Made by a program: the position numbers and the translations under genes. DNA of 64,000 bases. Source: Rubricella aquisinus (lineage in GTDB: Bacteria > Pseudomonadota > Alphaproteobacteria > Rhodobacterales > Rhodobacteraceae). How positions within the stretch are numbered: the first letter of the stretch is position 1; the number at the start of each line of letters is the position of its first letter. Below, one piece after another: positions 35,736 to 44,745 of the stretch. Below the pieces are notes generated by a model. It saw nothing but the letters and a program-made list of their open reading frames with translations. It was not told the origin of the DNA and made no database searches. Location: the NCBI RefSeq assembly GCF_014199445.1, contig NZ_JACIJS010000010.1, forward strand, positions 1 to 64,000, read 5' to 3'.

Positions 35736-36773
35736 ATGCCGCATCGTGACATCGCCGAGTGCCGGGAGGCGATCCGCCATGGCTCACGCAGTTTCCACGC
35801 GGCCTCGCATCTCTTGCCAAAAGATGTGCGCGAAGCAGCCCTTGCACTTTATGCGTTCTGCCGCCTCGCGGATGACGCGGTGGACCTGCGCGATGACAAG
35901 GCGGCGGCTGTCCTGCGCCTGCGTGACCGGTTGGATCATATTTATGACGGCACGCCGATTGATGCGGCGGCGGATCGGGCGTTTTCCCGCGTGGTGCATC
36001 AATATGAAATGCCAAAGGCGCTTCCCGATGCCCTGATCGAAGGGCTCGCTTGGGACGCGACCGAGCGTGAATATGAAACCCTGTCCGATCTACGCGCCTA
36101 TTCCGCGCGCGTGGCCTCTGCCGTTGGGGCGATGATGTGCGTGATCATGAAGGTGCGCAATGGCGATGCGCTTGCGCGGGCCTGCGACATGGGTGTCGCG
36201 ATGCAACTGACCAATATCGCCCGCGATGTGGGGGAGGATGCGCGCATGGGCCGGGTTTATCTGCCGCTTGACTGGCTTGCGGAGGAGGGGATCGACAAGG
36301 CGGCCTTTCTTGCCGATCCCGTGGCAACACCCGCCATTCGCCGCCTCGTTGCCCGCCTTTTGCGGGAGGCAGAGCGGCTTTATCTGCGGTCGGAGGCTGG
36401 GATTGCGGCCCTTCCCGTGCGCTGCCGCCCCGCGATTTATGCCTGCCGCCACATCTATGCTGCCATCGGGGCGGAGGTCGCGCGGGCAGGATATGACAGT
36501 ATTTCGACCCGCGCTCATACCTCTACGGGGCGCAAACTTGCGTTGCTCGCGCAATCGGGGGTGAATGCGGGGGCGACTGTGCTGCTTGGTCGGCAGGCCA
36601 CGCTTTATGCCAATCCCCTGCCCGAAGTCGCCTTCCTGGTCGAAGCGGCCGCGCGGCGCGCGGATCGCCAAACCGTTGCCGACCGGGTGGACCGGATGAT
36701 GGACCTGTTTGCGGAACTCGAACGCCGCGACCGGGGCTATCCCGACCCGCGCGAGCAGACGCCCGCTGAATAG
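35736..36773 (+). CDS. crtB: CrtB, phytoene synthase
   Basis: A 345-residue squalene/phytoene synthase. The two Asp-rich motifs that bind Mg-diphosphate are DDAVD (residues 46-50) and DVGED, with NIARDVGEDARMGRVYLP fully typical. It condenses two geranylgeranyl diphosphates to phytoene. AGGAG precedes the ATG. It follows crtI and precedes tspO. Confidence 0.96.
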   Translation: MPHRDIAECREAIRHGSRSFHAASHLLPKDVREAALALYAFCRLADDAVDLRDDKAAAVLRLRDRLDHIYDGTPIDAAADRAFSRVVHQYEMPKALPDALIEGLAWDATEREYETLSDLRAYSARVASAVGAMMCVIMKVRNGDALARACDMGVAMQLTNIARDVGEDARMGRVYLPLDWLAEEGIDKAAFLADPVATPAIRRLVARLLREAERLYLRSEAGIAALPVRCRPAIYACRHIYAAIGAEVARAGYDSISTRAHTSTGRKLALLAQSGVNAGATVLLGRQATLYANPLPEVAFLVEAAARRADRQTVADRVDRMMDLFAELERRDRGYPDPREQTPAE

Positions 36774-36843
36774 GCCCCCACCCGCTGCCATTGACCTTCC
36801 TTGCGCAGACCCCACTTGATGGGGTGGACCAAGCGACGGGTGA

Positions 36844-37320
36844 ATGATGTTTGAATGGCTTGTAATGGCTGGATTTGGCGCGGCTGCGATGGCGGCGGCA
36901 TCGACCGGTGCGCTGTTTCAGCCCGGCGATTGGTATGAGGCGCTCGATAAGCCAAGCTGGACGCCCCCGAACTGGCTGTTCCCGGTGGCGTGGATGGTCC
37001 TCTATATCGCGATGGTGGTGGCGGCGTGGCGCATGGCCCTGTCCGGGCATCCTTTGGCCCCGCTTGGTGTGGCGCTGTGGGCGGCACAAATGACATTCAA
37101 CGCGCTCTGGTCGCCAGTGTTTTTCGGATTGCAGAGGCTCGGGGCTGCTTTTGGCGTTATCGTTGGGCTCTGGATCAGCGTTGCGCTCACCCTGCTGCTG
37201 GCAGTGATGATCGACAGCATCGCGGCATGGCTGCTTGCGCCATATCTTGTGTGGGTCAGCTATGCGGCTGCGCTCAATTTGCGTATCTGGCGCACGAATG
37301 AGCTTCGCCAGCCGTCCTAA
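36844..37320 (+). CDS. tspO: TspO/MBR family tryptophan-rich sensory protein
   Basis: A 158-residue protein with five membrane helices. Family marks are KPSWTPPNWLFPVAWMVLYI and AQMTFNALWSPVFFG, and the late segment YLVWVSYAAALNLRIWRTN. In Rhodobacter sphaeroides TspO sits in the outer membrane and lowers photosynthesis gene expression in oxygen, probably through tetrapyrrole export or turnover. Its place after crtIB matches that organism. A small ACCCCA/TGGGGT hairpin lies upstream. Confidence 0.95.
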   Translation: MMFEWLVMAGFGAAAMAAASTGALFQPGDWYEALDKPSWTPPNWLFPVAWMVLYIAMVVAAWRMALSGHPLAPLGVALWAAQMTFNALWSPVFFGLQRLGAAFGVIVGLWISVALTLLLAVMIDSIAAWLLAPYLVWVSYAAALNLRIWRTNELRQPS

Positions 37321-41752: not shown

Positions 41753-42535
41753 ATGACACCGGGAAACGCGCTGATCACCGGGGCAGGGCGGCGGGTTGGC
41801 CGCGCCATGGCGCTCGACCTTGCGGCTCAGGGGTGGAACGTCGCGATCCACTACAACTCCAGTGAGGATGAGGCGCAGGCCGTCGCGGCAGAGGCCCGCA
41901 CCCATGGCGTGCAGGCGATTGCGGTCGGGGCCAATCTGCTCGACTGGGCAGAGACGGAGGCGCTGATCCCAAAGGTGACGGCCTCCCTCGGCCCGCTGAC
42001 ACTGCTGATCAACAACGCCTCCATTTTCGAATATGACCGGATCGACACCGCGACACAGGAAAGCTGGGATCGGCATATCGGCTCCAACCTGCGCGCGCCG
42101 CTGCAATTGACCCAAGCCTTCGCCGCGCAGGCACCGCAGGCGCGGATCGACGACGCGGGAGAGCCGGTGGCGCAAGCCGCAATCGTCAATCTGATCGACA
42201 TGCGTGTCAAAAAGCCAACGCCGGAATTCCTGACCTATTCTGTGGCGAAACGCGGACTTTGGGCCCTGACAGAGATGACGGCGCAGGGTCTCGCGCCCCA
42301 TATCCGCGTGAATGCCATTGGCCCCGGCCCGACGATGCAAGGTGAACGCCAGACCGCTGAACACTTCAAAAAGCAACGTGCCGCGACCATTTTGGAGCGT
42401 GGATCCGACCCGTCTGAGATCTGCGCGGCGCTGCGATTTATCCTGTCTGTTGATGGTTTTACAGGGCAACTCTTATGTATGGATGGAGGCCAGCATCTGG
42501 GCTGGGAAACCCCTGATGTGTTGGGCGTTGAGTAA
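41753..42535 (+). CDS. SDR with pteridine reductase (PTR1/FolM) features
   Basis: A 260-residue SDR. The cofactor motif TGAGRRVG has the TGxxxRxG form of pteridine reductases that bind NADPH. The catalytic set is Asp149, Tyr162 and Lys166 (NLIDM and YSVAK), where Asp replaces the usual Ser, as in PTR1 and FolM. It may reduce dihydro- or biopterin substrates and back up folate reduction. It lies 15 bases after the antiporter gene. Confidence 0.88.
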   Translation: MTPGNALITGAGRRVGRAMALDLAAQGWNVAIHYNSSEDEAQAVAAEARTHGVQAIAVGANLLDWAETEALIPKVTASLGPLTLLINNASIFEYDRIDTATQESWDRHIGSNLRAPLQLTQAFAAQAPQARIDDAGEPVAQAAIVNLIDMRVKKPTPEFLTYSVAKRGLWALTEMTAQGLAPHIRVNAIGPGPTMQGERQTAEHFKKQRAATILERGSDPSEICAALRFILSVDGFTGQLLCMDGGQHLGWETPDVLGVE

Positions 42536-42592
42536 GAAAATTACGAGTCCAACCAACACTTTTCCACTTGACACTTTTCCTTCACATTCCTG

Positions 42593-42607
42593 TTAAGATT
42601 CTCTTAA
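42593..42607. promoter_or_regulatory. CtrA-type binding site with embedded CcrM site
   Basis: TTAAGATTCTCTTAA is a complete TTAA-N7-TTAA palindrome; the spacer contains GATTC, a CcrM methylation site. Only the match to the consensus is seen; binding is inferred. Confidence 0.7.
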
Positions 42608-42748
42608 GGATTCCAATCGCCTAGCCCCGGAAAACTTTTTTATCCAATAAAATCAATGCCCTGCTAGTGCTGTTCAAAAAATAGGCAATCCGTATGAACC
42701 CTTTGTCGATAAGGCTTTTTTCCAAGGGGCGCGGTTTTCCTCACAGAG

Positions 42749-42757
42749 TTATCCACA
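42749..42757 (+). promoter_or_regulatory. DnaA box
   Basis: TTATCCACA is an exact match to the DnaA consensus, with a GATTC site beginning one base after it. Confidence 0.65.
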
Positions 42758-42834
42758 GATTCCGTGGATGCCTTTTTCCTTGAACACCACAGCACACCGT
42801 TGCAGCCAAGACAGAGAATCACGAGACTGTCACA

Positions 42835-44745
42835 ATGACCGAAACGCCATCACCACCGACCTATGATGAAGAGGGCAAAAGTGCCGCCACAGCGCAGGCC
42901 GTCCCGACAGGCGTGGAGGTGATCCGTAGCTATCTGAAATCTTTGGATGATCGGCCCGGCGTCTACCGGATGCTCAATGAGAAGTCGGAGGTGCTCTATG
43001 TCGGGAAGGCGCGGTCGCTGCGCAAACGGGTGGCGAATTACGCGAAGCTGACCGGGCATTCGGGCCGGATCGCCCGGATGATCGACGCAACCGCCTCGAT
43101 GATGTTCCTGACAACGGAGACGGAGACAGAGGCGCTTCTGCTAGAGCAGAACCTCATCAAACAGCTCAAGCCGAAATACAACGTGCTGCTGAGGGACGAC
43201 AAAAGTTTCCCCGACATCATGGTCACGACCGCGCATGGCTTCCCCCAGATCAAGAAACATCGCGGGGCGCGCAAGGATAAGGCGCTCTATTTCGGCCCCT
43301 TCGCGAGTGCCGGGGCGGTGAACCGCACGCTCAATCAGTTGCAAAAGGCGTTTTTGCTGCGCAACTGCTCTGACGCGATGTTTGACAGCCGGACGCGCCC
43401 CTGCCTGTTGCACCAGATCAAACGGTGCAGCGCGCCCTGTGTCGGCAAGATCAGCGAGGAGGAGTATGGCGCGCTGGTCAAGGACGCGACGCGCTTTCTG
43501 ACCGGCAAATCCACCAAGGTGCAGGAGCAGTTACAGCAGCAGATGGCCGAGGCATCCGCCGCGATGGAGTTTGAACGCGCCGCCGCCCTGCGCGACCGCA
43601 TCCGCGCCATGGCCCATGTGCAGGGCACGCAGAACATCAACCCGCGCACGGTGACGGAGGCGGACGTGATCGCGCTCCACCAGCAGGACGGGCAGGCCTG
43701 CGTCGAGGTGTTCTTCATTCGCGCGAACCAGAACTGGGGCAACCGCGCCTATTTCCCGCGCACCGGCGGGGCGGAGGATCCGGCGGAGGTGCTGGAGGCA
43801 TTCATGGGCCAGTTTTACGGCACGAAGGAGCCTGCGCGCCTGATCCTGATGTCTCATCCCTTGGAAACGCCAGAGCTGATGGCCGAGGCTTTGACGGAAA
43901 AGCTGGGCCGCAAGGTCGATATCGCCGTTCCCTTGCGCGGGGAGCGGCATTTTCTGGTCGAGCAGGCGGCCCGCAACGCGCGGGAGGCGCTGGCGCGGCG
44001 GATGTCGGAAAGTGCGACACAGGCCAAGCTGTTGCAGGGGCTGGCCGATGCGTTCGACCTTGATGGTCCGCCACAGCGGATCGAGGTCTATGACAACTCG
44101 CATATTCAGGGCACCGATGCGGTGGGCGGCATGATCGTGGCGGGGCCGGACGGGTTTCTGAAATCGAGCTATCGCAAGTTCAACATCAAGGGTGACAGCA
44201 TCACGCCCGGCGATGATTTCGGGATGATGAAAGAAGTGCTGGATCGCCGCTTTTCCCGGCTGATGAAGGAAGACCCGGATCGCAAGACCGACCAATGGCC
44301 CGACGTGATCCTGATCGACGGTGGTGCGGGGCAGGTGTCTGCGACCGTCGCAGCACTTGGTGAATTGGGCGTCGAGGATGTGGAGATCATCGGCGTCGCG
44401 AAAGGGGAACAGCGGGACGCGGGCAAGGAAATTTTCCACCGCCCCGGTATGCCGCCAAAGGCGCTGCCGTTCCGCGATCCGGTGCTCTATTTCCTGCAAC
44501 GCCTGCGGGACGAGGCGCACCGATTTGCCATTGGCACCCACCGTGCGAAACGCGCGAAGGCCACGACGCGCACGCCGCTTGACGAGATACCGGGCGTGGG
44601 GGCAGGGCGCAAACGCGCGCTGCTGGCGCATTTCGGCTCGGCCAAGGCGGTGAGCCGCGCGGGGCTCGCCGACCTGAAGGCCGTGCCGGGCATATCGCAG
44701 GCGCTCGCGGAAACGATCTACGCCTTCTTCCATGGGGAGCGGTGA
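42835..44745 (+). CDS. uvrC: UvrC, excinuclease ABC subunit C
   Basis: A 636-residue nucleotide-excision repair nuclease. In order: GIY-YIG domain ([20 protein letters not shown], around residue 45), Cys-rich [16 protein letters not shown] helix, the RNase H-like second nuclease ([21 protein letters not shown]) and a C-terminal helix-hairpin-helix pair ([21 protein letters not shown]). It makes both incisions around DNA lesions. The first ~30 residues are a low-complexity extension. Leads uvrC-pgsA-moaD-moaE. Confidence 0.98.

Follow-up and report, generated by a model that had tools for sequence, protein, structure and literature searches.

The region upstream of uvrC contains a conserved element of about 140 bp which, judged by its sequence, is probably an alphaproteobacterial DnaA-reactivating sequence (DARS-like), a reading to which we assign a probability of roughly 0.65. 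The element occupies positions 42,637 to 42,774 of the 64-kb window, the whole stretch of DNA analyzed, and has a rigid internal layout. Its three DnaA boxes are arranged in the DARS-type geometry I-5 bp-II-3 bp-III and are accompanied by an IHF-type and a Fis-type site. This arrangement, which was missed by the original prediction, explains the conservation of the region. The original prediction correctly identified a DnaA-related control region rich in CcrM sites upstream of uvrC and assigned it to a candidate oriC or a cell-cycle promoter. The element and its neighbors are organized as follows:

41,753 to 42,535, plus strand: SDR oxidoreductase gene, pteridine-reductase-like (NCBIfam NF006597); the upstream neighbor, also in other families
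42,560 to 42,568, plus strand: outer DnaA-like box TTTTCCACT (family form TTNTSCAC), about 188 bp before box II; position kept to within 2 bp in most family members
42,593 to 42,607, unstranded: TTAAGATTCTCTTAA, the CtrA site of the original prediction; relatives carry an 11-bp-spaced GYNA repeat instead
42,637 to 42,774, plus strand: whole conserved element (match to profile R1, 66.5 bits), with the IHF site, the Fis-type dyad and DnaA boxes III, II and I
42,651 to 42,663, plus strand: IHF-type site AATCAATGCCCTG, which differs from WATCARNNNNTTR at one position; its CA and TT are near invariant
42,672 to 42,686, unstranded: Fis-type dyad GTTCAAAAAATAGGC, fitting GnnYAnnnnnTRnnC; family consensus GCCTAAAAATTAGGC
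42,737 to 42,745, plus strand: DnaA box III, TTCCTCACA (6/9), 3 bp before box II
42,749 to 42,757, plus strand: DnaA box II, TTATCCACA (exact), near invariant in alignments A2 and A4
42,758 to 42,762, unstranded: GATTC, which takes up all 5 bp separating boxes II and I; a GANTC is found at this place in a minority of relatives
42,763 to 42,771, minus strand: DnaA box I, inverted, reading GCATCCACG (6/9), 5 bp after box II
42,816 to 42,820, unstranded: GANTC just before uvrC, +63 to +69 from box II in 28 of 30 family members
42,835 to 44,745, plus strand: uvrC, excinuclease ABC subunit C (TIGR00194, 542 bits)

Motif content, conservation and box geometry

The interval between the SDR gene and uvrC is AT-rich and contains a cluster of GANTC sites. 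Its 299 bp (42,536 to 42,834) have a GC content of 43.8% compared with 62.4% for the window. A motif scan of the window located GANTC at 42,545, 42,597, 42,609, 42,758 and 42,816; these five sites are part of a total of 33 per 64 kb, the other 28 being spread over the remaining 63.7 kb. The cluster exceeds chance expectation (Poisson P of about 3e-7 at the local rate; 0.35% of composition-matched shuffles), which bears out the enrichment upstream of uvrC noted in the original prediction, and all motif positions given there (the CtrA-type site, the five GANTC sites and the DnaA boxes) were recovered. Among the proposed DnaA boxes, the exact TTATCCACA at 42,749 and the reverse-strand near match TTATCGACA at 42,704 stand; the match TTATCCAAT at 42,640 is present and weak. 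No other exact copy of the 42,749 box exists in the window, and the nine copies genome-wide are no more than the reversed-pattern control gives, so that context alone makes this box notable. The sequence TTAAGATTCTCTTAA represents the sole TTAA-N7-TTAA in the window. An Rfam scan of the window returned no match.

Conservation of these motifs is uneven. The original prediction had tied its proposal to conservation in related genera, and alignment of related genomes upheld this for the 42,749 box and the 42,816 GANTC; the full CtrA site is absent from the relatives. Alignment A2, comprising the uvrC upstream regions of 29 same-family relatives, contains conserved blocks whose mutual spacing is constant to within one or two bases. 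Relative to box II at position 0, these are the outer box TTNTSCAC at -188, IHF-type sites at -137 and -97, the dyad GCCTAAAAATTAGGC at about -77, an inverted GTGGA arm and the GANTC site downstream of the core. Most of the other alphaproteobacterial families that were sampled retain the inner blocks, in many cases with the same SDR gene preceding them. The GANTC, positioned 10-20 bp ahead of the uvrC start in 28 of 30 family members, suggests either a leader feature or a connection with CcrM/GcrA.

The DnaA boxes of the element occupy fixed offsets and orientations. When all offsets and both orientations around box II were scanned, the best three DnaA-box matches were found at 0 on the plus strand (box II), at -12 on the plus strand (second-best, box III) and at +14 on the minus strand (third-best, box I), and these offsets are the best ones separately in the family of this genome and in 12 other families. 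They correspond to III-3 bp-II-5 bp-I, exactly the positions found in DARS1 and DARS2. Written in one frame, the core in the window reads TTCCTCACA-gag-TTATCCACA-gattc-CGTGGATGC, with boxes I and III being degenerate.

IHF- and Fis-type motifs are found on the box III side of the core. A relaxed IHF-type site (WWWCARNNNNTTR) is present at a fixed position before the core in 34 of 41 aligned sequences and lies about 72 bp beyond box III, on the same side as the IHF sites of DARS2. The Fis-type dyad, defined by the Fis consensus GnnYAnnnnnTRnnC (PMC8682772), is found at the same place, likewise in 34 of 41, whereas shuffling gives a chance of about 2% per sequence. Four HU/IHF-family genes are present in this genome. 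HTH_8 (Fis-type) domains are confined to open frames of at least 190 aa, so that no Fis-sized protein is evident in Alphaproteobacteria from the HTH_8 domain search.

Comparison with E. coli DnaA-regulatory loci and profile searches

The core of the element has the layout of the two E. coli DARS loci. DARS1 is located between bioD and uvrB and DARS2 before mutH in the rppH-mutH region; these locations and the double boxes have been described (PMC11317965). The DARS core consists of three DnaA boxes, of which box I runs in the opposite orientation to the other two, and has identical spacing at both loci (PMC5742627), and the head-to-head pairing of boxes I and II is essential (PMC10380432). The primers used for deletion of DARS2 boxes I-III (PMC4585315) flank the boxes assigned to the DARS2 core in this analysis. 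In the same frame, the DARS1 core reads TAATACACA-tgg-TTATCCACA-ggaat-AGTGGATAA and the DARS2 core TTCTTCACA-act-CTATCCACA-gaaaa-GGTGAATAA. The element likewise possesses three DnaA boxes of which only box I is inverted, fixed spacings of 5 bp between I and II and of 3 bp between II and III, and a core similar in sequence to both loci, the similarity to DARS2 being barely above that of the first chance match.

Each E. coli locus shares further features with the element and differs from it in others. DARS1, with its inverted box I and the same 5-bp and 3-bp gaps, also precedes a nucleotide-excision gene, uvrB in E. coli and uvrC here. In contrast to the element, DARS1 has no reported IHF or Fis requirement and another neighbor gene, and its boxes I and III are stronger. 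DARS2 has the same core geometry, a Fis-type site is part of both, and its IHF sites are found on the box III side at 58-74 bp beyond that box, compared with about 72 bp in the element. DARS2 is, however, 455 bp long instead of about 140 bp, and the host of the element is without an evident Fis protein. Both motif types are present, but IBS1-2 and FBS2-3 of DARS2 follow the order core-IHF-Fis whereas the element has the order core-Fis-type-IHF and is therefore not classed as DARS2.

A profile of the element recovers both DARS loci from E. coli DNA. Profile R1 is sequence-only, was built from 41 alphaproteobacterial sequences and matches this genome only once, at the element. It has matches in 265 of 385 alphaproteobacterial genomes (about two thirds), with approximately 30% being without a match. 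The E. coli test covered 300 kb in six stretches picked to include oriC, datA, DARS1 and DARS2, so that the resulting order does not represent a blind genome-wide ranking: DARS1 is the top match at 22.6 bits, followed by oriC (18.5), datA (15.5) and DARS2 (12.9), the last exceeding the first chance match (12.3 bits) only slightly. Only the two DARS matches include box I, extending to profile positions 137-140, whereas those to oriC and datA break off short of it at 126-127. R1 matches occur in 301 of the 399 genomes of a sample spanning the phylum, with up to eight in some. Up to eight matches each, many of them full-length, are found in non-alphaproteobacterial genomes beside pyrD, recG, priA and other genes, possibly representing an expanded set of DARS-like sites. 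In the betaproteobacterium Aquabacterium, an R1 match precedes priA.

Alternative functions of the region

The region resembles a chromosomal origin in being AT-rich and in carrying DnaA boxes, an IHF-type site and many GANTC sites, motifs which, together with CtrA-like ones, are also found in Cori, but gene neighborhood and strand polarity put oriC elsewhere. The parAB and hemE/hemJ-ppsR-maf neighborhood is located on contig C1, in the order parB, parA, rsmG, mnmG, mnmE, rho, hemJ, AT-rich gap, ppsR, maf, aroE, coaE and dnaQ (ParB, ParA, HemJ and PpsR named by profile, the others read from translations), and matches the Caulobacter origin neighborhood. The AT-rich hemJ-ppsR gap contains one TTATCCACA and several DnaA-box near matches and is likely the oriC of this genome; it lies at about 511.0-511.4 kb of C1 within a neighborhood spanning 490-520 kb. 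The parAB genes are the recommended ori anchor in this class (PMC8116508), and uvrC is found approximately 0.40, 0.79, 0.95 and 1.04 Mb from chromosomal parB in four closed or near-closed relatives. In one closed relative (G003), the family's KOPS-like octamer GGGCAGGG occurs on the chromosome at nearly four times the reversed-control frequency and is strongly strand-biased. Read from 20-kb stretches, almost all copies between 0.01 and about 1.33 Mb are on the plus strand, and those between 1.69 and about 3.33 Mb are mostly on the minus strand. The polarity does not switch around uvrC (3.07 Mb), where minus copies are in the majority on both sides, which refutes an origin there. Gene neighborhood, parB distance and KOPS polarity thus rule out the original proposal of an oriC upstream of uvrC, to which we attach next to no probability. 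Only marginally more credible is a CtrA-controlled cell-cycle promoter as in Caulobacter, suggested by the full TTAA-N7-TTAA at 42,593. This site is private to this genome, being found in none of the uvrC upstream regions of 30 relatives, and an 11-bp-spaced GYNA repeat takes its position in 19 of the 30; CtrA control is consequently without comparative support, and the site was set aside for its lack of conservation. What is left of the cell-cycle promoter claim is that a cell-cycle promoter of uvrC is a possible second function of the region. At about 42,586 to 42,607, the 11-bp-spaced repeat of the relatives (CGTTACnnnnnCGTTAC) is degenerate or replaced by the CtrA-like site; in sequence, the repeat looks like a site for an OmpR-family response regulator.

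A DnaA- and IHF-regulated uvrC promoter that ties nucleotide-excision repair to the cell cycle without contributing to DnaA recycling seems unlikely to us, although the link to uvrC is strong and a transcriptional role could account for much of the conservation. Both the element and uvrC are listed for 89 genomes, and in 83 of these the element precedes the uvrC match by 35-470 bp in the same orientation. The GANTC close to the uvrC start is kept in 28 of 30 family members, and uvrB of E. coli is given among the genes repressed by DnaA (PMC11317965). A DNA-pattern scan found the order SDR-element-uvrC in Ruegeria profundi and Magnetospirillum, with further pattern matches on Paracoccus, Roseomonas and Kordiimonas contigs. 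Yet the internal spacing is rigid despite a more than tenfold variation in the distance to uvrC, a promoter does not require an inverted box I at exactly 5 bp, and outside the Alphaproteobacteria the neighbors of the matches are different genes, priA and pyrD among them. The element also persists away from uvrC in the two of the six exceptions that were inspected (contig breaks may explain some of the other four). In G233, uvrC is 1.17 Mb away and the element is located directly behind the SDR gene with the next gene being convergent; in G131, where uvrC is also elsewhere, a FolB/SDR-like gene precedes it and a gene other than uvrC follows. These two genomes indicate that the element is not simply a uvrC promoter. 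Less probable still is a datA-like or titration site that would lower free or ATP-bound DnaA. datA also combines DnaA boxes with an IHF site (PMC10380432) in intergenic DNA and is weakly matched by R1, but its essential boxes all share one orientation around the IHF site (PMC5742627), whereas box I of the element is inverted, and the R1 match to datA ends before this box.

A proposed role in DnaA recycling

To our knowledge, how active DnaA is restored after RIDA in Alphaproteobacteria is not settled. By analogy with E. coli, we infer that the element binds DnaA and IHF, supports nucleotide exchange and affects initiation. DnaA would bind boxes II and I in opposing orientation, with box III next to box II, yielding a head-to-head DnaA pair of the type known from DARS1 and DARS2. 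The flanking DNA next to box III would be bent by IHF and by a protein using the Fis-type dyad, both of which would also modulate the complex. Stimulated by box III and IHF bending, the head-to-head DnaA at boxes I and II would release ADP; the resulting apo-DnaA would be freed and take up ATP, raising the level of ATP-DnaA, which would then promote initiation at oriC, far away on the chromosome. Regulation of uvrC may be a second function of this DnaA complex, similar to what has been reported for uvrB in E. coli.

The DARS-like reading is supported by the identity, orientation, spacing and conservation of the boxes, by the IHF- and Fis-type motifs and by the recovery of E. coli DARS loci with R1. 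Counting against it are the 6/9 matches of boxes I and III, the order of IHF- and Fis-type sites unlike that in DARS2, the lack of an evident Fis-sized protein, the roughly 30% of genomes without a match and the small difference between DARS2 and the first chance match (12.9 vs 12.3 bits).

DARS have been described in gammaproteobacteria (PMC4451416, PMC4245941) and, in general terms, in 'many proteobacterial species' (PMC10380432). We found no published description in Alphaproteobacteria; an earlier mention in the original DARS paper (Fujimitsu 2009) is possible. At somewhat less than even odds, a DARS-type element would be ancestral and widespread in Alphaproteobacteria, usually located before uvrC, with a non-Fis protein acting at the Fis-type site and GANTC linking the element to CcrM methylation. 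If so, ADP-DnaA recycling by chromosomal sites would not be a gammaproteobacterial speciality. Being about 140 bp long, single-copy here and beside a fixed gene in most other genomes, the element makes DnaA recycling testable through deletion of one intergenic region, and profile R1 provides a means to find such sites across Proteobacteria.

Elsewhere in the window, at 35,736 to 37,320, a Rhodobacter-type crtB is followed by tspO, genes often found in the photosynthesis gene cluster, and from this pair the source organism may be a phototroph.
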